DNA of 5,762 nt, from the NCBI GenBank assembly GCA_027002755.1, contig JALWZI010000144.1, forward strand, positions 1 to 5,762. Reading direction: 5' to 3'. The translations under genes and the position numbers were made by a program. The notes under the pieces are model-generated. The model was not told the DNA's origin. It worked only from the letters and a program-made list of their open reading frames with translations, and made no database searches. The DNA is from Campylobacteraceae bacterium. Lineage in GTDB: Bacteria > Campylobacterota > Campylobacteria > Campylobacterales > Sulfurovaceae. This document shows, piece by piece, positions 1 through 5,762 of this stretch (positions are counted from its first letter, which is position 1; each line of letters begins with the position of its first letter).

Positions 1-576
1 CTCGTCGATAGCCAGGCGTCCCGCGGTGTCGATGAGCACCACGTCGTAGAGCTCATCCTCCGCCTTTTTGAGCGCCCGTTTGACCACCTCATCCGGCGTG
101 GCGTTCTCGTCGGCCACCAGATCCACGCCGATCTGCTCGGCGATCTGACGCAGCTGCTCCACCGCCGCCAGACGTTGCAGGTCCGCCGCGGCAATCAGGA
201 CCTTCTTTTTCTTCTGCTCTTTGAGCATCGTGGCCAGCTTGCCGGTGGTGGTGGTCTTACCCGATCCCTGCAGACCGGTCATCAGGACCACCGTCGGCGG
301 ACGGGAGGCGAAGACGAAGCCCTGATTCCCCTTGGCCGTCAGGATCCGCACCAGCTCGTTCTGCAAGGCCGCCATGAAGTTCTCTTTGCCGATCCCCGCG
401 GCTTTGGTCTCCTTCTCCACCGTCGAGATCAGCTCTTTGACCACCTTGTGGTGGACATCGGACTTGAGCAGCGCTTTTTTCAGCTCCGTCAGCGCCTTCT
501 TCAGCGCCTTTTCGTCATCGTGAAAACGGATCTTTCCGATCGCATTTTTGAAACTGTCGGTCAGTGTATCAAACAT
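1..576 (-). CDS. ffh: Signal recognition particle protein Ffh, N-terminal part (runs off the window)
   Basis: Ffh is the SRP GTPase that, with the small SRP RNA, binds signal sequences emerging from the ribosome and delivers the complex to FtsY at the inner membrane. The 192 codons visible (ATG at 574-576) start MFDTLTDSFKNAIGKI and give the helical N domain (about residues 1-95), then the start of the G domain: P-loop GLQGSGKT at 101-108, the D-L-Q-R-L-A-A-V-E-Q-L segment at 132-142 and DTAGR at 183-187. The rest of the G domain and the methionine-rich M domain lie beyond position 1. The family usually has Pro where Leu follows Arg in the 132-142 segment; this may be a lineage trait. A weak Shine-Dalgarno (AAAGG) sits about 9 nt upstream of the ATG. 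Ffh next to an RluA-family gene is the Campylobacter order. Identification is secure. Confidence 0.97.
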   Translation of the reverse strand, partial: MFDTLTDSFKNAIGKIRFHDDEKALKKALTELKKALLKSDVHHKVVKELISTVEKETKAAGIGKENFMAALQNELVRILTAKGNQGFVFASRPPTVVLMTGLQGSGKTTTTGKLATMLKEQKKKKVLIAAADLQRLAAVEQLRQIAEQIGVDLVADENATPDEVVKRALKKAEDELYDVVLIDTAGRLAIDE

Positions 577-634
577 CGAAATACCCTTTCTTGGAGGGAA
601 ATTTTGGAAATTCTATCCAATTTTTTTACCCTCC
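577..634 (-). promoter_or_regulatory. ffh leader with a possible -10 element
   Basis: Between ffh and the repeats further upstream lies an AT-rich leader. On the minus strand it contains TAGAAT (610-615), one mismatch from the sigma-70 -10 consensus, 33 nt upstream of the ffh ATG. No -35 hexamer is visible at the right distance. Campylobacterota promoters often lack one and use phased T-rich DNA instead, and the upstream heptad array does supply regularly spaced T-runs. A short stem (CCCT/AGGG with a 7-nt loop, 584-598) could partly mask the ribosome binding site. A weak call: ffh may simply be co-transcribed with the RluA-like gene. Confidence 0.22.
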
Positions 635-665
635 ATCCAAAATCCATCATCCAAAATCCAAAATC
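635..665. repeat. Degenerate 7-bp tandem repeat, unit ATCCAAA
   Basis: Four consecutive 7-nt units begin at 635, 642, 649 and 656: three are ATCCAAA and one is ATCCATC. A fifth, diverged unit (ATCGGAT) begins at 663 and runs into the palindrome at 666. The first five bases are invariant and the last two vary. The array fills about a third of the spacer between the RluA-like gene and ffh. On the minus strand it reads as phased T-runs (TTTTGGA). Confidence 0.85.
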
Positions 666-699
666 GGATATTCAGCGTTATTTATAACGCTGAATATCC
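666..699. repeat. Perfect 34-nt palindrome overlapping the end of the RluA-like gene
   Basis: Two perfectly complementary 15-nt arms (GGATATTCAGCGTTA at 666-680 and its complement at 685-699) enclose a TTTA loop. The stop codon of the pseudouridine synthase gene (678-680) lies at the loop edge, so the last codons of that gene form the stem. On the minus strand the stem is followed by GATTTTGGATTTTGG, moderately U-rich but without a clean U-tract, so it could be a weak terminator or a 3'-end stabiliser ahead of ffh. The arms contain GCGTT...AACGC, also the core of the palindromes at 1463 and 1693. Confidence 0.85.
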
Positions 700-1409
700 T
701 TCGGTTCCGGCGCCTCATAACTGCGTCCAAGCAGCGTGATTTTCTTCGCGTGCAGCAGGGGGCGTTTGGCCCGGGTGGGGCTGCCGTAGAGCTCGTCGCC
801 GACGATAGGGTGGCCGGCGTGGGCCAAGTGGACCCGGATCTGATGGGTCCGGCCCGTCTCGATCTCGATACGCACTTTCGACTTCTTCCCCTGGACCTCA
901 TCGGGCCAGACCCGTGTCAGGGCCGGTTTGCCCCGTTTCTTGTCGATGCGGGAGATCGCCTTGCCCTTTTTGATCGTGTGAATCGGCAGATCAATCTCCA
1001 GGGGCTCCACCACGACCCCCTCGACCCAGGCGACATACTCTTTGTGGACTTTCCGCTGGCGGAAGGCTTCGATCGCCTTTTTGGCGAAGGCTTCGTCCCG
1101 GGCCAAAAGCAGCACACCGCTGGTCTCCCGATCCAGACGGTGCAGCAGCTGCGCCCCTTCGATGGCCTCTTCGATCTCGTAACTGTCGATAAAGGCGGGC
1201 TTGTCCACCGCCACCACCTGCTCATCCTGATAGAGGATCCGCACATCGGCAGGCTCTTCGATACGGAACCTTGTCTCTTCCGGCATCTCCGCCCGGGCGA
1301 TCCTGACCTTCTGATCCCCCACATAGACCAGACCCCGGTCGATGAGCTCCTTGGCCTTCTTGTTGGAGATCCCCTCCTGTTCGGCCAGAAGTTTGTAGGC
1401 TTTTTCCAT
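678..1409 (-). CDS. RluA-family RNA pseudouridine synthase
   Basis: This enzyme isomerises specific uridines in rRNA or tRNA to pseudouridine in the cytoplasm. The 243-residue product has an S4-like N-terminus (about 1-55, including GISNKKAKELIDRGLVYV), then the catalytic domain. VVAVDKPAF at 65-73 and HRLDRETSG at 90-98 carry the family signature, with Asp93 the expected nucleophile. GRTHQIRVHL at 186-195 and VGDELYG at 203-209 are the conserved C-terminal blocks. The stretch between DKP and HRLDR is shorter than in E. coli RluD or RluC. The ATG is preceded by AAGGA with a 5-nt gap (1415-1419), which fixes the start. The position next to ffh corresponds to C. jejuni Cj0708 and H. pylori HP0956. 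The target uridine cannot be told from sequence, so no symbol is given. The stop codon lies in the palindrome at 666-699. Confidence 0.93.
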   Translation of the reverse strand: MEKAYKLLAEQEGISNKKAKELIDRGLVYVGDQKVRIARAEMPEETRFRIEEPADVRILYQDEQVVAVDKPAFIDSYEIEEAIEGAQLLHRLDRETSGVLLLARDEAFAKKAIEAFRQRKVHKEYVAWVEGVVVEPLEIDLPIHTIKKGKAISRIDKKRGKPALTRVWPDEVQGKKSKVRIEIETGRTHQIRVHLAHAGHPIVGDELYGSPTRAKRPLLHAKKITLLGRSYEAPEPKDIQRYK

Positions 1410-1426
1410 GTATATCCTTCGGATTA

Positions 1427-1454
1427 GTGTTAAGTGCTATGTGCTAAGTGTTAA
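1427..1454. repeat. Degenerate 7-bp tandem repeat, unit GTGYTAW
   Basis: Four exact-period 7-nt units begin at 1427, 1434, 1441 and 1448: GTGTTAA, GTGCTAT, GTGCTAA and GTGTTAA. Only positions 4 and 7 vary. The array lies in the 5' leader of the RluA-like gene, immediately upstream of its Shine-Dalgarno, and 8 nt from the palindrome at 1463. The unit sequence is unrelated to the ATCCAAA array in the next spacer, but the period is the same. Confidence 0.85.
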
Positions 1455-1462
1455 GGAAATCT

Positions 1463-1479
1463 GCGTTGCAAAGCAACGC
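1463..1479. repeat. Palindrome GCGTTGC-AAA-GCAACGC, copy 1
   Basis: A perfect 7-bp inverted repeat with a 3-nt loop. An identical 17-nt copy lies at 1693-1709, 230 nt away in the same spacer. Flanking bases outside the 17 nt differ, so the palindrome itself is the repeated unit. It has no T-tract on either side and does not look like an intrinsic terminator. A short palindrome repeated exactly within one spacer suggests a dispersed REP-like family in this genome; that is inference. Confidence 0.85.
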
Positions 1480-1504
1480 CTCGAAATCCCTCACTCTTCA
1501 TTCC

Positions 1505-1644
1505 TAATTAAACCCTCTGAAAAGGTGTAAAAAAGGTTTCACTCGATGGCGACAAAGGAGCGCTTGCCCCGAAAGGGTGCCAACGGCATTAGCGACTGCC
1601 AGAGCTATCGAGTGAAACCGGAGATTTTTCAGAGCCCTCAATTA
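1505..1644. repeat. 140-nt nested inverted repeat; candidate structured RNA or small MITE-like element
   Basis: Three nested complementary pairs are visible: TAATT (1505-1509) with AATTA (1640-1644), CTCTGAAAA (1515-1523) with TTTTCAGAG (1626-1634), and a perfect 13-nt pair GGTTTCACTCGAT (1535-1547) with its complement (1607-1619). The 59-nt interior is GC-rich and can form further helices, for example CGCTTGCC (1560-1567) with GGCA and AGCG (1585-1594, TT bulge), or hairpins with a GAAA or AAC loop. On the minus strand the 13-bp stem is followed directly by six T (1529-1534), as at the end of a terminated transcript. A minus-strand GATAAT (1641-1646) could serve as a -10. It matches no riboswitch, 6S, tmRNA or SRP RNA motif I can recall. 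A non-autonomous mobile element with terminal inverted repeats is equally possible; no target-site duplication is obvious. Confidence 0.55.
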
Positions 1645-1663
1645 TCCATTCTTATCAAAGAGT

Positions 1664-1681
1664 GCGGGAATAAATTCCCGC
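1664..1681. repeat. Palindrome GCGGGAAT-AA-ATTCCCGC
   Basis: A perfect 8-bp inverted repeat with a 2-nt centre. It has the GCG...CGC ends of the neighbouring palindromes but a different interior. On the plus strand it is followed by five C and on the minus strand by ACTCTTTG, so neither side provides a terminator U-tract. Confidence 0.8.
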
Positions 1682-1692
1682 CCCCAGAATCC

Positions 1693-1709
1693 GCGTTGCA
1701 AAGCAACGC
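1693..1709. repeat. Palindrome GCGTTGC-AAA-GCAACGC, copy 2
   Basis: An exact repeat of the 17-nt palindrome at 1463-1479, in the same spacer. It lies 10 nt from the heptad array that begins at 1720, mirroring copy 1, which lies 8 nt from the array ending at 1454. The two copies therefore bracket the foldback, with heptad arrays outside them. Confidence 0.85.
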
Positions 1710-1719
1710 ACCACAATTT

Positions 1720-1754
1720 CTAGTTACTAGTTACTCGTTTCTAGTTTCTGAATA
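1720..1754. repeat. Degenerate 7-bp tandem repeat, unit CTAGTTA/CTAGTTT, overlapping the DUF167 3' end
   Basis: Units begin at 1720, 1727, 1734 and 1741 (CTAGTTA twice, CTCGTTT, CTAGTTT), with a diverged fifth at 1748 (CTGAATA). The DUF167 stop codon (TAG, minus strand, 1727-1729) lies in the second unit, so the last residues of that protein (KLETSN) are encoded by the repeat. The CTAGT core is shared with the arrays near glyQ. Confidence 0.85.
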
Positions 1755-2023
1755 AATTCAGAGAATTTCTCAGTATACGGAAATTCCAGGATCTTGATCT
1801 TCGCCGTCTCTCCGCTTTTGAAACGGATTGCACTTTTGGGGACCTTGAAGGCTTTGGAGAGGAATTTGACCAGCTCTTTGTTGGCCGCTCCCTCCACTGC
1901 CGCTGCGGCGATGCGGATCTTGATCGCCTCGTCACCGTAGAGGCCGGCAAACTCGCTGCGGCTGGCACCGGGCTGGGCCTTAACCTTCAGGGAGACCCTC
2001 TCCCCCTGCTTCTCATAGAACAT
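1727..2023 (-). CDS. DUF167 (YggU-like) family protein
   Basis: A 98-residue member of the small alpha/beta DUF167 family, whose molecular function is not established. Conserved marks are QPGAS at 17-21, the VEGAAN block at 43-48 (family form P-V-x-G-x-A-N) and SGETAKIK at 70-77, in the usual order for this roughly 100-residue family. The ATG (2021-2023) lies inside the end of waaA; the two genes overlap by 11 nt in different frames, and a strong Shine-Dalgarno sits 7 nt upstream, so translational coupling is likely. From memory this gene is absent between waaA and the RluA-like gene in C. jejuni and H. pylori. The C-terminal residues KLETSN are read from a heptad repeat and are probably an accidental tail. 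Confidence 0.9.
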   Translation of the reverse strand: MFYEKQGERVSLKVKAQPGASRSEFAGLYGDEAIKIRIAAAAVEGAANKELVKFLSKAFKVPKSAIRFKSGETAKIKILEFPYTEKFSEFIQKLETSN

Positions 2024-3179
2024 TTCGGATCTCCTTTTCGATGAGCTCCAGCGGATTCTCCGTCAGCTTCAGACGGCTCCGCTCCAACAGTTTGGGATAG
2101 CGGAGGGTTTCGGCAAGCTTTTCCCGCTCCACGATCGTGATCCCCTCGATCCCGGCGAAGAGGTCCTTCTGATTGAAGTAGTGGGGACCGGTGATGATGG
2201 GGATCCCGAACTGGGCCGCTTCGGCGGCATTGTGGCCGCCAATGGGTTCAAAGGCGCCCCCCAGGACCACCAGATCGCTGACGGCATAGCAGTTGATCAG
2301 CTCACCCATCCGGTCCATCAAGGTCAGATCGGCCATCAAATTCCCGCTTTCGCTGAAGCGTGCGATTTGCCACTCCTGCAGTTTGGCAAAAGAGCGCATC
2401 ATCCGCCACACCTTCTCGAAGCGCTCCGGGTGGCGCGGCACCAGCACCATCTTCGCCTCGGGACGCAGCATTTTGAGCTCCCGATAGGCCTGGAGGATCT
2501 CCCCCTCCTCCCCTTCGTGGGTGCTGGCGGCACAGACCAGATAGCCCTCGGGCTTTTCGAAGTCCCGGGTAGGAGAGGGAATCTGCCCCAGTTTGATGTT
2601 GCCGACGACAGTGACATGGCGTGCGCCAAGAGCTTCCAGACGCTTCCGATCCGCTTCGCTCTGGGCAAAGACCCGGTCCACATGGGCGAAGAGTCGGCGG
2701 TAGAACCAGGCGAATCGCCGGTAACGGGGCCAGGAGCGGTCGCTGATGCGGGCATTGACCAGGAAGGTCGCCGCCCCCCGCCTTTTTGCCAGGGCAAAGA
2801 GCAGGTACCACAGCTCCGCCTCCATCACCACCAGGGCTTTCTGAGGCTTCATCCAGAACCAGAGCAGCGGATCAAAAGGAAGGTACCGGCTCTGCTCGGC
2901 CGAGAGGGTCTGAAGGCTCTCAAACCCGGTCTGGGTCGTCGCACTCAGGCGGCGGATATCGGGATCGAAACGCTCCACCAGAGGGGCGACGGCCCTCGCT
3001 TCACCGAAACTGCAGACGTGGAACCATACCCCCTCCGGTTTCAGAGGGGGATTACGCCAGAGAAAAAAACGGGCGGGGATGGAGGAACAGTACTTTTTCC
3101 TGAAAGAAAAGAGAAACAGAATCGGAAGCGCCGCCAGCCAGGCGACGGCGGTCAGCAGCGTATAACAGCAGGTGAACAA
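2013..3179 (-). CDS. waaA: 3-deoxy-D-manno-octulosonic acid (Kdo) transferase WaaA
   Basis: WaaA (KdtA, family GT30) transfers Kdo from CMP-Kdo to the lipid A precursor on the cytoplasmic face of the inner membrane, the first step of LPS core assembly. From the TTG at 3177-3179 the product is 388 residues. It has an N-terminal hydrophobic anchor (about 6-26) followed by basic residues (FRKKY), then the Kdo-transferase N-domain with CSFGEARAV (57-64; Glu60 is the expected catalytic base) and TTQTGFESL. The C-terminal GT-B half contains CAASTHEGEE, LVPRHPER and VVLGGAFEPIGGHNAAEA (304-321). The TTG is chosen because the protein then begins MFTCCYTLLTAVAWLAALP, as WaaA proteins do, and lies 7 nt after the zinc-ribbon stop codon. 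A GTG at 3263 would add 28 basic, low-complexity residues overlapping the zinc-ribbon gene by 77 nt. The Shine-Dalgarno is weak, so coupling to upstream translation is likely. Confidence 0.94.
   Translation of the reverse strand: MFTCCYTLLTAVAWLAALPILFLFSFRKKYCSSIPARFFLWRNPPLKPEGVWFHVCSFGEARAVAPLVERFDPDIRRLSATTQTGFESLQTLSAEQSRYLPFDPLLWFWMKPQKALVVMEAELWYLLFALAKRRGAATFLVNARISDRSWPRYRRFAWFYRRLFAHVDRVFAQSEADRKRLEALGARHVTVVGNIKLGQIPSPTRDFEKPEGYLVCAASTHEGEEGEILQAYRELKMLRPEAKMVLVPRHPERFEKVWRMMRSFAKLQEWQIARFSESGNLMADLTLMDRMGELINCYAVSDLVVLGGAFEPIGGHNAAEAAQFGIPIITGPHYFNQKDLFAGIEGITIVEREKLAETLRYPKLLERSRLKLTENPLELIEKEIRNVL
2031..2038 (-). promoter_or_regulatory. Strong ribosome binding site for the DUF167 gene inside waaA
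   Basis: AAAAGGAG on the minus strand, 7 nt upstream of the DUF167 ATG and within the last codons of waaA. It supports the start at 2023 and reinitiation after waaA translation. Confidence 0.75.
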
Positions 3180-3186
3180 GGCCGCA

Positions 3187-3912
3187 TCAGGCCTCTTGGG
3201 CCGTCTCCGTCTCTTCCAGGTAGAGGATCCGTCCGCAATGGGGGCAGGTGACGATCTCTTCACCGCGGATCACATCGGAGTAGGTCTTGTCGCTGATCTT
3301 GAGGTAGCAGCCGTAGCAGGCCTGCTTGCGCACGGGGACCACGGCGGTGTTGCCGGCCCATTTGCGGATCTTCTCGTAGAAGGAGAGGATCTTCTGATCC
3401 ATCTTGCGGATGATCTCTTCGCGGGCTTTATAGAGGCCCTCTTTCTCCTTCTCGATCGCCTGCAGCTCCTGATCCGCATCGGCACGGGCCGCGTCGAGAG
3501 CCTCCTGAAGTTTCTTGAGCTCCTCTTCGGCCTCTTCCAGCAGCGCCGTTTTGGTCTCGATCACCTTGTTGAGGCGCTCGATCTCCTCATTGGCGAAGGT
3601 GAGCTTCTCTTTGGCGATCTCCTCTTCGATCTGGAGGGCCTTCATCTCCTTTTCGGTGGAGATCTCCTTGCCCTTTTTCTGGATATCCTGGAGCTGCTCG
3701 CTCAGGGATGTGATCTGCTCTTCATAGCTGGCGATTTTGTCTTTGCTCTCTTCGATCTGCTGACGCAGGGTGTCGATCTGGGACTGAGCCGCCTCGACCT
3801 TTTTCGCCTCTTTGGCGACTTTCTTTTCGGCAGCTTCGATCTGGGGGGCGAAACTGTCCAGCTCCTTGTCGATACGGGAGAGTTCGATCAGCTCTTTGAG
3901 GTGTTGATTCAA
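3187..3912 (-). CDS. Coiled-coil protein with C-terminal C4 zinc ribbon (HP0958/FlgZ-like)
   Basis: The 241-residue product has a long, strongly charged coiled coil (about 1-180, rich in E, K, Q and A heptads) and a C-terminal zinc ribbon with CYGC (199-202) and CPHC (223-226) as the four zinc ligands. This architecture and the neighbours (Nif3-like upstream, waaA downstream) match H. pylori HP0958 (FlgZ) and C. jejuni Cj0706. HP0958 is reported to stabilise the sigma factor RpoN and to bind flaA mRNA, and the chlamydial relative CT398 also contacts sigma-54. Whether the same role applies here is unknown, since no flagellar gene is in the window. The start is TTG (3910-3912): an in-frame TAA lies two codons upstream and AAAAGGA sits 6 nt before it, so no upstream ATG is possible. 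The gap to the Nif3-like gene is 42 nt. Confidence 0.92.
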   Translation of the reverse strand: MNQHLKELIELSRIDKELDSFAPQIEAAEKKVAKEAKKVEAAQSQIDTLRQQIEESKDKIASYEEQITSLSEQLQDIQKKGKEISTEKEMKALQIEEEIAKEKLTFANEEIERLNKVIETKTALLEEAEEELKKLQEALDAARADADQELQAIEKEKEGLYKAREEIIRKMDQKILSFYEKIRKWAGNTAVVPVRKQACYGCYLKISDKTYSDVIRGEEIVTCPHCGRILYLEETETAQEA

Positions 3913-3954
3913 TGGTTATCCTTTTGGATGGGAGGTCTTGAAGGAAACGTTGCG

Positions 3955-4680
3955 CTATCGGCTGATAGTGAACGGATTTTTCGATGGCGCGATTATAGCC
4001 GAAATCGGTAAATTTTTCAATTGTTCCGCCATCAGCTCGGCGAAAAAGCGCTCGCTCTCCCAGTGGCCGATATCCACCATCATCAGCCCCTGGCTCATCG
4101 CCTTCATCGCCTCGTGGTACTTGATATCTCCGGTGAGGAAACACTCCGCCTCCACCCGGTCCATCATCGAAGCCCCGGCCCCGGTGCACAGTGCTACGGA
4201 GCCGATCCATTCCCGGGGTGCCACCATCCGCAGCACCTCCAGGCCGAAGGCTTCCCGCACCTGCTTCTGCAATTCTTCCAGGCTCCAATCGACCGAGGCT
4301 TCGCAAAGATAGGGCTCCTCCCGCTCCGGCTCCAGGCCCATTACCTGGGTGAAGACATGGCGATTGAGATGGGTCTGATCGAAGTTGGTATGCATGGCAA
4401 TGAGCGATTGGCGCTTCTGGATCAGCCGCTCGATCAATTTGGCGGGATAGCGGCGGAAATCGAGCTCCATCAATTTGCCGAAGATGAGCGGATGGTGCAC
4501 CACAAAAAGCACCCCCTCCTCCACCTCCTCGATCATCTCGGAATCGAGATCCAGCGAGACGACGATCCGCTCGATGTCACGCTCCGGGTGTCCCACGATC
4601 AGGCCGCTGTTGTCCCAGCTCTCCTGCAGTTCGAAGGGGCTCAGTTCGTTCAGGTAGTCGTAGATGTCGCGGAGTTTCAT
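3955..4680 (-). CDS. Nif3-like dinuclear metal centre protein (DUF34/YbgI family)
   Basis: A 241-residue cytoplasmic protein of the Nif3/YbgI family, which forms hexamers with a two-metal site. It has been linked to GTP cyclohydrolase I type 2-like annotations and metal handling, but its reaction is not settled. Expected metal ligands are visible: HHPLIF (62-67), HTNFD (97-101) and, near the C-terminus, GHWESE (205-210). WDNSGL at 22-27 and TGDIKYHE at 183-190 are also family blocks. The length fits the short form without the inserted PII-like domain of longer homologues. The ATG is preceded by AAGGA with a 6-nt gap (4687-4691). It corresponds in position to Cj0705 and HP0959. A 105-nt repeat-filled spacer separates it from glyQ. 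Confidence 0.94.
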   Translation of the reverse strand: MKLRDIYDYLNELSPFELQESWDNSGLIVGHPERDIERIVVSLDLDSEMIEEVEEGVLFVVHHPLIFGKLMELDFRRYPAKLIERLIQKRQSLIAMHTNFDQTHLNRHVFTQVMGLEPEREEPYLCEASVDWSLEELQKQVREAFGLEVLRMVAPREWIGSVALCTGAGASMMDRVEAECFLTGDIKYHEAMKAMSQGLMMVDIGHWESERFFAELMAEQLKNLPISAIIAPSKNPFTISR

Positions 4681-4690
4681 TTTTTGTCCT

Positions 4691-4721
4691 TAGTCTCTAG
4701 TCACTAGTCGCTAGTCGATAG
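4691..4721. repeat. Degenerate 7-bp tandem repeat, unit TAGTCNN
   Basis: Units begin at 4691, 4698, 4705 and 4712 (TAGTCTC, TAGTCAC, TAGTCGC, TAGTCGA), followed by a partial TAG. The first five bases are fixed and the last two vary. The array directly abuts the ribosome binding site of the Nif3-like gene. An 18-nt stretch (4698-4715) is perfectly complementary to 4771-4788 in the opposing array. Confidence 0.88.
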
Positions 4722-4733
4722 TTTTTGGAAGGG

Positions 4734-4753
4734 TTTTGAAAAATATTTCAAAA
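4734..4753. repeat. AT-rich hairpin between opposing heptad arrays
   Basis: A perfect 8-bp inverted repeat (TTTTGAAA and its complement) with an AATA loop, at the centre of the Nif3-like/glyQ spacer and flanked by heptad arrays in opposite orientation. On the minus strand, seven T's span the 5' edge of the stem and CCCTTCC follows it, so it is not a standard terminator for glyQ. Confidence 0.7.
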
Positions 4754-4763
4754 AAACATCATC

Positions 4764-4801
4764 ACTAGAAACTAGCGACTAGTGACTATCGACTAGCAAC
4801 T
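4764..4801. repeat. Degenerate 7-bp tandem repeat, unit ACTAGNN, overlapping the glyQ 3' end
   Basis: Units begin at 4764, 4771, 4778, 4785 and 4792 (ACTAGAA, ACTAGCG, ACTAGTG, ACTATCG, ACTAGCA), with a partial ACT. It is the same family as the array at 4691 but inverted; 4771-4788 pairs perfectly with 4698-4715. The glyQ stop codon (minus strand, 4786-4788) and its last codons (V-A-S-R) lie in this array. Confidence 0.88.
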
Positions 4802-5682
4802 CTTTCAAGCCGCTCCGGCTCCTGAGCTTTGTAGAGCTCGGCGCACCCTTTGGCCAGGTCCCGGATCTTGAGGATGTAGTTCTGGCGCTGGGCCTGACTG
4901 ATGGCTTTGCGGGCATCGAGGACGTTGAAGGTATGGGAGGCGATCATGCACTGATCGTAGGCCGGCAGGGGCAGCCCCGCCTCCAGGCAGCGGCGGCACT
5001 CATTGCTAGCGTCGTCGAAGTGGCGAAAGAGCATCTCGGTATCGGCCACCTCGAAGTGGTATTTGGAGAACTCGTATTCGCTCTCTTTGTGGACGTCGGC
5101 GTAGGTGACGACCTGATCGCCGTTGCGGTTCCAGACGATATCGAAGACCGACTCGACCCCCTGCAGATACATCGCCAGCCGCTCGGTCCCGTAGGTGATC
5201 TCCACAGCGACCGGATCACAGGGGAGTCCTCCCACCTGCTGGAAGTAGGTGAACTGGGTCACCTCCATCCCGTCCAGCCAGACCTCCCAGCCCAGGCCCC
5301 AGGCTCCGAGAGTGGGCGACTCCCAGTTGTCCTCGACGAAGCGGATATCGTGATCCTGAAGCTTGAGCCCGAGGAACTCGAGGGATTTGAGATAGAGATC
5401 CTGGATGTTGTCAGGCGAAGGTTTGATCAGCACCTGGAACTGGTAATAGGCCCCCAGGCGGTTGGGGTTCTCCCCGTAGCGCCCGTCGGTAGGACGGCGG
5501 CTGGGGGCCACGTAGGCGGTGGCCCAGGGGGTGGAGTCCAGCGAGCGCAGCAGGGTCGCGGGATGAAAGGTCCCCGCCCCGGCAGGCAGGTCGTAGGGCT
5601 GGACAATGGTACAGCCCTGAGCCGCCCAGTATTGCTGCAGTTTCAGAAGGAGGTCGGAGAAGGTGATGGCGTTTTGATTCAT
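4786..5682 (-). CDS. glyQ: Glycyl-tRNA synthetase alpha subunit
   Basis: GlyQ is the catalytic class II subunit of the bacterial alpha2-beta2 glycyl-tRNA synthetase, which charges tRNA-Gly; it needs the beta subunit GlyS, not in this window. The 298-residue product (E. coli GlyQ is about 303) shows [19 protein letters not shown] (25-43), motif 2 with [19 protein letters not shown] (59-77) and motif 3 with [11 protein letters not shown] (164-174). Start: the ATG at 5680-5682 gives the family N-terminus [19 protein letters not shown] and follows the upstream stop codon by 2 nt, with AGGAA (5693-5697) 10 nt upstream. A start 19 codons earlier would overlap the upstream gene and adds no family sequence. 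The last four residues are encoded by a heptad repeat. Followed by the Nif3-like gene, as in C. jejuni and H. pylori. Confidence 0.97.
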
Positions 5683-5684
5683 AA

Positions 5685-5762
5685 CTATGCGATTCCTAAA
5701 AGTTTGTCGATTTTGGCCTGGTCGAATCCGCAGATCCACTGACTGCCGATGAGCACCACCGG
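5685..5762 (-). CDS. Glutaredoxin-like protein, C-terminal end (runs off the window)
   Basis: The last 25 codons of an open frame read [20 protein letters not shown] and then LLGIA before a TAG at 5685-5687. The pattern (cis-Pro, V-V-x-I-G, then W-I-x-G-F-D followed by a K-I-x-x-L-L helix) is the C-terminal strand-helix of small glutaredoxin/NrdH-type thioredoxin-fold proteins. The CxxC active site would lie upstream of the window and cannot be checked. It ends 2 nt before the glyQ ATG and supplies the glyQ ribosome binding site, so the two are probably co-transcribed. As I recall it is not the neighbour of glyQ in H. pylori, where gpsA is adjacent. Confidence 0.7.

Follow-up and report, generated by a model that had tools for sequence, protein, structure and literature searches.

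How can the spacers of one short stretch of DNA share a repeat period of exactly seven nucleotides when the repeated unit differs from array to array? The question arises in the window, by which we mean the whole 5,762-nt stretch analysed here (contig JALWZI010000144.1, positions 1 to 5,762), from a Campylobacteraceae bacterium of the Sulfurovaceae whose genome is called G000 below. The window holds five lag-7 arrays in total, lying in its three long spacers and situated where the original prediction had placed them (Table 1). The top-scoring lag-7 segment reaches 14 in spacer 577-677, 13 in 1410-1726 and 18 in 4681-4785, and in each case 0 of 300 dinucleotide shuffles scored as high. This test takes one best segment per spacer and covers arrays 635-665, 1426-1455 and 4691-4722; arrays 1717-1754 and 4764-4801, which run into genes, lie outside it and rest on the repeat listing and the sequence. 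Lag 14, a multiple of 7, scores 13, 8 and 10.5 in the same three spacers, and none of the remaining lags from 3 to 15 exceeds a score of 7; four of their nominal p values lie at 0.003-0.02. Spacer 3913-3954, the fourth of the window (42 bp), has no lag-7 array.

Table 1. Arrays, hairpins and array-pair interior located in the window.
Feature	Position	Strand	Remarks
Heptamer array, ATCCAAA on + (sense ATTTTGG on -)	635..665	-	Right-hand end type; 12 bp beyond the pseudouridine synthase ORF, which ends at 678
Perfect inverted repeat with 16-bp arms and a 2-nt loop	666..699		Arm 1 lies in the last part of the pseudouridine synthase gene; arm 2 runs from its stop codon up to the array
Heptamer array, GTGYTAW	1426..1455	+	Left-hand end type
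Inner hairpin GCGTTGC-AAA-GCAACGC	1463..1479		Beside the array; read from the sequence
Inner hairpin GCGTTGC-AAA-GCAACGC, second copy	1693..1709		Read from the sequence
Heptamer array, CTAGTTA on + (sense AACTAGT on -)	1717..1754	-	Right-hand end type; extends into the end of the YggU ORF (1727-2023)
Heptamer array, TAGTCNN	4691..4722	+	Left-hand end type; five TAGT cores at 4691, 4698, 4705, 4712 and 4719 (exact 7-nt steps)
Interior of ORF-less array pair, 41 nt	4723..4763		Between arrays 4691-4722 and 4764-4801
Heptamer array, ACTAGNN	4764..4801	-	Five ACTA cores at 4764, 4771, 4778, 4785 and 4792 (exact 7-nt steps)

The periodicity extends well beyond the window. A sample of the congener G020, consisting of 20 evenly spaced 20-kb pieces (400 kb), contained 73 lag-7 arrays, 48 of them intergenic and 25 in called ORFs. 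Each of the other lags between 4 and 15 gave 0-7 arrays, lag 21 gave 10, and one Markov shuffle of the sample gave a single lag-7 array. The claim that the period is conserved and the unit is not, with a lag-7 excess across the genome, was thus borne out in the genome on which it was tried. The 73 arrays fall into 31 canonical units, on which ground a dispersed element of a single sequence was rejected. The pattern of five fixed and two variable columns described for the window is also the commonest in the genus, exactly five columns being invariant in 55 of 156 arrays. This 156-array set draws on 14 G000 contigs in addition to the window, five of which were chosen for their CTAGT arrays, as were stretches of G038, G086 and G053; two of its arrays flank a gene of the family to which we now turn.

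That family is Pfam PF05635, the 23S rRNA intervening-sequence protein (IVP), a four-helix bundle. Counting any lag-7 array within 170 bp of an IVP gene, we found an array on at least one side of 43 of the 50 loci in the genus, on both sides of 32 and on neither side of 7 (50 of 52 loci, leaving out G000:C72, at a contig end, and G064:C3). Beyond the genus the figures were 24, 17 and 3 for 27 loci in 15 genomes (30 of 68 matches, minus three below the family cut-off), and for plasmids of distant bacteria 26, 24 and 4 for 30 loci (30 of 34 matches). All of these loci were found through PF05635 itself. At other lags from 4 to 13, arrays accompanied at most 6/50, 2/27 and 2/30 loci, respectively. 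Three sets of control genes, none from plasmids, had an array on at least one side in 73/335, 41/180 and 28/234 cases and on both sides in only 7, 2 and 2 (1-2%). The bracketing units vary between loci, AATGAGG going with the IVP of G000:C163 and CAATTCG with that of Nostoc sp. N6. The two flanking arrays are mostly inverted copies of one another: the left unit and the reverse-complemented right unit differ at no more than one of seven positions in 33 of 36 loci of the genus (7% for mismatched loci) and in 17 of 24 two-sided plasmid loci (6% for mismatched loci), the remaining 7 of 24 differing by two or more.

The number of arrays also follows the number of IVP genes. Nine genomes of the genus with 4-8 IVP genes yielded 106 lag-7 arrays in 679 kb, and four with 0-1 IVP genes yielded none in 139 kb (Spearman 0.76 over the 13 genomes). 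Contigs were picked by number for this count, and some samples are small (G070, 16 kb; G046, 13 kb; G058, 3 kb). The contigs so picked from G070 and G064 (16 and 43 kb), genomes with four IVP genes each, contain no array, although each genome has three near nif3. The four array-poor genomes appear to be the most divergent of the 13, with the lowest nif3 identities, and the correlation within the genus may therefore represent a single event. In other genera, ten genomes with IVP genes gave 14 arrays in 291 kb and ten without gave 1 in 216 kb.

The units of the window, or units within one letter of them, recur around IVP genes in congeners. At site S1, the IVP genes of G046, G053, G020 and G064 are flanked by the sense unit of array 635-665, and the spot of this array is occupied in G038, G086 and G053 by CTTCCAT or CATTCTC arrays instead. 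The unit of 1426-1455 lies within one letter of the units ACGTGCT and ACGTGTT that flank IVP at S4 in G046, and the sense unit of 1717-1754 flanks IVP genes at S4 (G086, G081, G053) and S5 (G081, G038). The units of 4691-4722 and 4764-4801 are within one letter of AGTCGAT and AGTCTCT at the IVP locus G053:C62. The CTAGT shared by the last three arrays, singled out in the original prediction, is hence partly meaningful: 1717-1754 is a reversed member of the AACTAGT family, and the final two are close to the G053 units. The unit families of the window are absent from the sampled IVP units of G000 itself, a genome 75.6% complete, and have their cognates in congeners. Among the 156 arrays, 84 have units matching IVP units of their own genome, as against about 27 for letter-shuffled units, and 106 have units identical to one found at IVP loci of the genus, as against 17.

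No ORF lies inside the array pairs of the window. Array 4764-4801, which overlaps the glyQ stop codon, is the inverted partner of 4691-4722, which stands 10 bp ahead of the start codon of nif3; over 32 nt, 4691-4722 and 4764-4795 are 84% complementary, and when folded as RNA the two arrays make one extended stem of -52.5 kcal/mol, with z -8.7 against shuffles. Adjacent oriented pairs are convergent in 38 cases, tandem in 8 and 8, and divergent in none. Free arrays and those flanking IVP genes share a modal length of 31 nt; the peak at 30-33 nt persists at lower thresholds, with a minor second bump at 15-17 nt. In ORF-less convergent pairs, however, the two units are on average 2.71 letters apart, against 3.07 by chance, with 11 of 38 within one letter. 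Since these units are barely more alike than chance, many such pairs must be mosaics or nested remnants. Hairpins like 666-699 number 36 in 724 kb, and 14 of the 36, some of them mutual orthologues, stand no more than 40 bp from an array's outer edge. The hairpin at 1463-1479 recurs in an ORF-less element of G038 at the orthologous spacer, and related hairpins occur within IVP elements. Comparison of flanks by eye placed breaks near the arrays, with outer fold-back repeats present instead of any consistent direct duplication of the target site. Neither the window nor four IVP loci matched an Rfam family at its gathering score.

Comparison of orthologous sites shows the array-IVP-array unit being swapped as a cassette between conserved flanks, with IVP sequence and heptamer shifting jointly and against the species tree. 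IVPs at the same site are 77% identical where the unit is the same (40 pairs) and 58% where it differs (59 pairs), for species identities of 83 and 82%, and none of 5000 within-site permutations gave as large a difference. G000 and G038, 96% identical over three core proteins, carry S1 IVPs that are 56% identical and have different units; G038 and G070 (85%) carry S1 IVPs that are 96% identical and share a unit. Arrays are gained, lost and swapped in orthologous spacers. Sites are array-free in some species, as in G064, where three of the window's spacers are 16-48 bp long, and in G010, where two are 0-1 bp; other sites keep the ends without the gene, as G020 does at S6. Co-variation of unit and IVP is also expected from plain linkage within a cassette.

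The five arrays of the window are probably ORF-less kin of the arrays that bracket IVP genes. They would likely be the ends of small mobile elements, in which an IVP ring, probably of five subunits, would set the period. PDB entry 2rld, which matches IVP at E 9e-34, has five chains, as does 2gsc (E 0.28), cited as a PF05635 structure in PMC10053308; the 2gsc paper, known to us from reference lists, has 'five four-helix bundles' in its title. A pentameric IVP could grip one array with one subunit per heptamer. The ring would be filled by five cores, each of 3-5 nt and recurring every 7 nt, over 31-33 nt, a span matching the modal array length; ring geometry would then give the period, and IVP specificity the unit sequence. 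Like MITEs, which depend on autonomous relatives, ORF-less pairs might be generated and maintained in trans. The MITE-like sharing of inverted ends with a gene-carrying relative is present, yet ORF-less pairs match each other poorly. Because no nuclease is known with the IVP fold, we propose that host replication or repair would move the strands. The original prediction saw in the constant period a process that generates or selects 7-nt periodicity. A process beyond the copying of one sequence must indeed hold the period, but generation spacer by spacer does not seem to fit, given the convergent pairs that elsewhere bracket IVP genes and the cassette replacement. The opposite notion, that the arrays stem from a single dispersed element and have since diverged, is half right, in that there is one element class with many unit families.

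IVP might instead be a mere passenger, with a different enzyme of host or element recognising the cassette ends and with unit and IVP co-varying by linkage alone, which would yield the same co-variation. The lack of any known nuclease with this fold favours such a reading, as does the excess of stand-alone arrays over IVP genes: the 73 arrays in 400 kb of G020 compare with 6 IVP matches in its whole genome. We nevertheless regard it as unlikely, given that the same gene family lies within the brackets in every phylum examined (at loci found via that family), that stand-alone units match IVP units of their own genome far above the shuffled level, and that candidates for another enzyme are missing from many or all IVP-rich genomes. 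Y1 transposases are absent from five of the nine IVP-rich genomes (G000, G070, G086, G081 and G046, several of them incomplete drafts) and reverse transcriptases from all nine; of the 13 genomes, the two that have a reverse transcriptase both have 0-1 IVP genes. An Avd-type retroelement was rejected on the latter ground, and a Y1 transposase/REP system was rejected because its presence does not track the arrays.

Two explanations dispense with a mobile element. Polymerase slippage favouring 7 nt, a hypothesis of Mrazek 2007 as cited in PMC4679880 and PMC4692102, would produce independent microsatellites with a common period and no common sequence, and in most of the genomes of that survey heptamers are, by the same citations, the most frequent of the long simple repeats. 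A few arrays are indeed very long (106, 110, 120 and 193 nt), and slippage may expand single arrays. As the main cause it was rejected and is extremely improbable: lengths peak at 31 nt rather than falling from the detection floor, arrays are convergent, form matched pairs at IVP loci and bracket one gene family, and genomes with 0-1 IVP genes lack them in 139 kb. Alternatively, the RNA stem of paired arrays could be a selected regulatory site controlling translation, termination or processing between neighbours, along the lines proposed for TAACTGA repeats. The fold of the window pair far beyond shuffles, the closeness of its arrays to the nif3 start and glyQ stop codons, and the 23S rRNA IVS stems that serve as RNase III sites (PMC4990558) are in keeping with this; the turnover of arrays in orthologous spacers, down to the array-free spacers of G064 and G010, makes it very unlikely.

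Ends of IVP elements, as we read the arrays, have a close precedent in the intervening sequences (IVS) of 23S rRNA genes. According to PMC4990558, the Coxiella IVS contains a protein of the same family (S23p/IVP, there thought probably not expressed), has complementary termini forming a stem, of 28 bp, and carries three tandem heptamers and a degenerate fourth right before the S23 ORF. That IVS lies inside 23S rRNA genes, whereas the window arrays lie between protein genes, and the present elements exist in many copies, include ORF-less derivatives and have units that vary along with the protein. Other heptamer repeats share the period and a mostly intergenic location: GGGAATC of Xanthomonas, mostly in four units and with 70 and 75 convergent pairs, three heptamers of Calothrix (both PMC4692102) and TAACTGA of Beggiatoaceae (PMC4679880). 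The available parts of these papers name no IVP partner and describe one or few units per genome, against 31 in 73 arrays here. The TAACTGA sets are mostly direct and unpaired, and in PMC4692102 heptamers were not found tied to mobile elements, with few pairs in Anabaena. A search for IVP in the order of the Thiotrichaceae genome G143 found no match in the sole genome covered, so TAACTGA could not be tied to IVP.

Among other systems, Avd of diversity-generating retroelements resembles IVP, as noted in PMC10053308; three of six scanned IVPs match the Avd model with E values of 2e-5 to 9e-5, which fall short of its cut-off, but no IVP-rich genome of the genus has the reverse transcriptase. A further parallel comes from elements moved by a protein in trans. 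REP/REPIN sequences are many, short, palindromic and intergenic and are thought to be moved in this way by RAYT transposases; the Y1 transposase is missing as described above, and tandem heptamers are not known as part of REPs. TRAP, whose ring binds RNA triplets at regular intervals, offers a model for a ring that would read one short motif per subunit, although the protein is unrelated to IVP.

The original prediction knew of no account of heptamer repeats in Campylobacterota, a gap filled by GTGATTA, reported in Helicobacter pylori, a campylobacterote (PMC4692102). The heptamer excess in bacteria is already published. The freely licensed literature, in titles and abstracts among the matches listed, never links heptamer repeats outside rRNA genes to a PF05635 protein, the nearest link being the heptamers that precede the S23 ORF within a 23S IVS (PMC4990558). 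We tentatively extend the reading, at somewhat less than even chances, to bacterial heptamer repeats at large, those of cyanobacteria, Xanthomonas and the 23S IVS included, as the termini of a single superfamily of tiny mobile elements in which a pentamer would read five 7-nt words, the ring fixing period and count and each protein lineage having its own word. Two puzzles would then be joined, namely seven as the commonest long unit of bacterial simple repeats and the role of a widespread 'four helix bundle protein'. If this is true, hundreds of short repeats per genome would be traces left by a single type of element, the unit would predict the protein and vice versa, and the classic 23S rRNA IVS would belong to a larger family that also lives between protein genes.

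The five arrays of 7-nt tandem repeats that the original prediction placed in the window are real, and the heptameric period claimed for its spacers is seen as an excess at lag 7 and at its multiple, 14. Each array of the last pair contains five cores of 4 nt that recur exactly every 7 nt; spacing in the other three is less regular. The predicted genome-wide peak is also present. In G020, a congener assembled as a single 2.10-Mb contig and sampled as 20 evenly spaced 20-kb pieces, 73 arrays with 31 canonical units were detected at lag 7, against 0–7 at any other lag from 4 to 15. The pattern CTAGTNNCTAGTNNCTAGT occurs in 9 of 13 genus genomes; of 107 further genomes in the family, one has it.

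Genes for 'four helix bundle proteins' tend to accompany short repeats, and for this reason we searched for PF05635, the family of the 23S rRNA intervening-sequence protein (IVP). Nine genus genomes carry 4–8 copies, the other four carry 0, 0, 0 and 1, and the family was absent from all 14 control genomes searched. An array lies within 170 bp on at least one side of 43 of 50 IVP loci in the genus, and on both sides of 32. The corresponding counts are 24 and 17 of 27 loci from 15 genomes outside the genus, including metagenome-assembled genomes (MAGs) labelled Deltaproteobacteria, Nitrospiria, Rhodocyclales and Arcobacter, and 26 and 24 of 30 plasmid loci (30 of 34 matches) from Cyanobacteriota, Spirochaetota, Bacteroidota, Bacillota, Chloroflexota and Pseudomonadota. 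In three sets of control genes, none from plasmids, arrays were found on at least one side in 73/335, 41/180 and 28/234 cases and on both sides in 7/335, 2/180 and 2/234. At other lags from 4 to 13, no more than 6/50, 2/27 and 2/30 IVP loci scored in the genus, outside it and on plasmids, respectively.

Array abundance correlates with IVP copy number. When contigs were chosen solely by number, 679 kb from the nine IVP-rich genus genomes contained 106 lag-7 arrays, at 9.8–30.9 per 100 kb in seven of the genomes and with none in the contigs sampled from G070 (16 kb) and G064 (43 kb); the four genomes with 0–1 copies have none in 139 kb (Spearman 0.76). Because the array-poor congeners appear to be the most divergent by nif3 identity, this correlation may reflect a single event. 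The data from outside the genus stand apart from such an event: ten IVP-bearing genomes hold 14 arrays in 291 kb (7/10 with any), and ten IVP-free genomes hold 1 in 216 kb. Most genomes are drafts, and reading frames were called with a simple script.

The two arrays of an IVP locus are mostly inverted copies of a single unit. Left and inverted right units differ at no more than one of seven positions in 33 of 36 genus loci, compared at a slightly lower array threshold, versus 7% in mismatched loci; for plasmid loci the figures are 17 of 24 versus 6%. In Nostoc sp. N6 and Nostoc sp. C052, an identical, perfect 33 nt stands on either side of each locus. We propose that the arrays are the ends of small mobile elements bracketing an IVP gene.

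Protein and unit also co-vary. The genus loci comprise eight orthologous sites (S1–S8) and four singletons. Within sites, IVP identity is 77% for same-unit pairs versus 58% for different-unit pairs at equal species distance, a gap matched in 0 of 5000 within-site permutations (the pairs are non-independent). Between sites, identity averages 52% where units are the same or nearly so and 31–38% otherwise. The pattern conflicts with the species tree: G038 and G000, the window's genome, share 96% identity in three core proteins but 56% for the IVP at S1. G038 and G070 are more distantly related, yet their S1 IVPs are 96% identical and their units the same. The right flank at S1 in G038 has kept more similarity to that of G000 (91%) than to that of G070 (83%), so the cassette changed and this flank did not; the left flank, 98.6% over the 145 bp before a G070 contig end, is little informative. 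Linkage without recognition can also produce such co-variation.

Gain and loss are visible at orthologous sites. S8 holds an IVP element in G020, G081 and G053, arrays without IVP in G000, G086, G070 and G046, and no array in G038 and G064. S6 holds the element in five species; G020 retains both arrays and similar inner ends with the ORF gone, and G053 the right array only. Among 156 stand-alone arrays from nine genomes, oriented by IVP units, 106 exactly match a genus IVP unit (17 for letter-shuffled units) and 84 lie within one mismatch of an IVP unit from the same genome (about 27 shuffled). Adjacent pairs within 300 bp are convergent in 38 cases, tandem in 8 + 8, divergent in none and not orientable in 5 (binomial p 3e-12). 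Units within an ORF-less pair are only weakly alike (11/38 within 1; mean distance 2.71 versus 3.07), which counts against a simple mini-copy view and fits nesting and mosaics, as at S8.

The window is contig 144 of the draft G000 assembly (1.57 Mb, 300 contigs), which is 75.6% complete, and IVPs cognate to the window units were located in congeners, not in this incomplete genome. The window proteins, all on the minus strand, are a partial SRP54-type GTPase, a pseudouridine synthase, YggU/DUF167, a Kdo transferase, a zinc-ribbon protein, NIF3 and glycyl-tRNA synthetase alpha; our shorthand for their genes includes ffh, rlu, nif3 and glyQ. The closest named synthetase relatives are from Campylobacteraceae-labelled MAGs, then one Epsilonproteobacteria and one Sulfurovum MAG. 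Spacers at the window's sites measure 48, 16 and 48 bp in G064 versus 101, 317 and 105 in G000, and one spot in the ffh–rlu spacer holds ATCCAAA, CTTCCAT or CATTCTC arrays depending on species.

Repeat features of the window
Feature	Position	Remark
Array	635–665	
Fold-back inverted repeat	666–699	perfect
Array	1426–1455	
Hairpin GCGTTGC-AAA-GCAACGC	1463–1479	directly inside array
Dispersed repeat	1505–1644	140 bp; contains nested inverted repeats
Hairpin GCGTTGC-AAA-GCAACGC	1693–1709	directly inside array
Array	1717–1754	
Array	4691–4722	
Array	4764–4801	

The 140-bp repeat, which has no counterpart in Rfam, gives 30 matches in G000, 42 in either of G070 and G086, 35 in G038, 34 in G046 and 17 in G020, 1–2 matches in G053, G081 and G064, and none across the four IVP-poor congeners. 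Kin of the hairpin occur within IVP elements. Perfect fold-back repeats also mark the outer edges of other arrays: in 724 kb, 14 of 36 with arms of at least 10 bp, some of them mutual orthologues, lie within 40 bp of an outer edge and 3 at inner edges. They may be insertion marks from snap-back synthesis, a favoured target or ordinary gene-end hairpins.

Heptamers have been described elsewhere. PMC4692102 reports Xanthomonas GGGAATC heptamers, mostly of four units, in 70 and 75 convergent pairs, like the arrays here; it saw few such pairs in Anabaena and did not find the heptamers associated with mobile elements. The solved protein XCC0516 comes from Xanthomonas campestris. The TAACTGA repeats reported in PMC4679880, which cites a 7-nt polymerase idea, lie upstream of start codons and are mostly direct, whereas ours are mostly convergent. 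PMC4990558 places three heptamers in tandem, together with a degenerate fourth, immediately before the S23 ORF of a 23S intervening sequence with ends that pair in a stem of 28 bp, and judges the S23 protein probably not expressed. In the parts of the open-licence literature available, no link between heptamers outside rRNA and IVP was found.

Defence genes adjoin or enclose seven plasmid IVP genes (L255, L333, L335, L341, L250, L258 and L336), of which two lie between cas2 and cas1, one beside cas1, one between cas6 and cas4, one between hsdS and hsdR, and two between DUF1156 and Swt1-HEPN genes. By eye, at site S1, L201, L204 and L205, the right array passes directly into the start of the next reading frame downstream and no ATG is evident in between, and the element may therefore supply that gene's start.

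Array length, in the stand-alone set and 101 IVP-flanking arrays, peaks at 30–33 nt (median 31), and the peak persists when thresholds are lowered so that shorter arrays could be detected. Five cores of 3–5 nt at 7-nt steps span 31–33 nt. There are five chains in 2rld, the closest solved relative (E 9e-34), and also in 2gsc (E 0.28, not significant here), whose paper, by its title in reference lists, deals with five four-helix bundles. From these lengths, cores and structures we infer a likely pentameric IVP ring that would set the period, with each subunit taking one heptamer.
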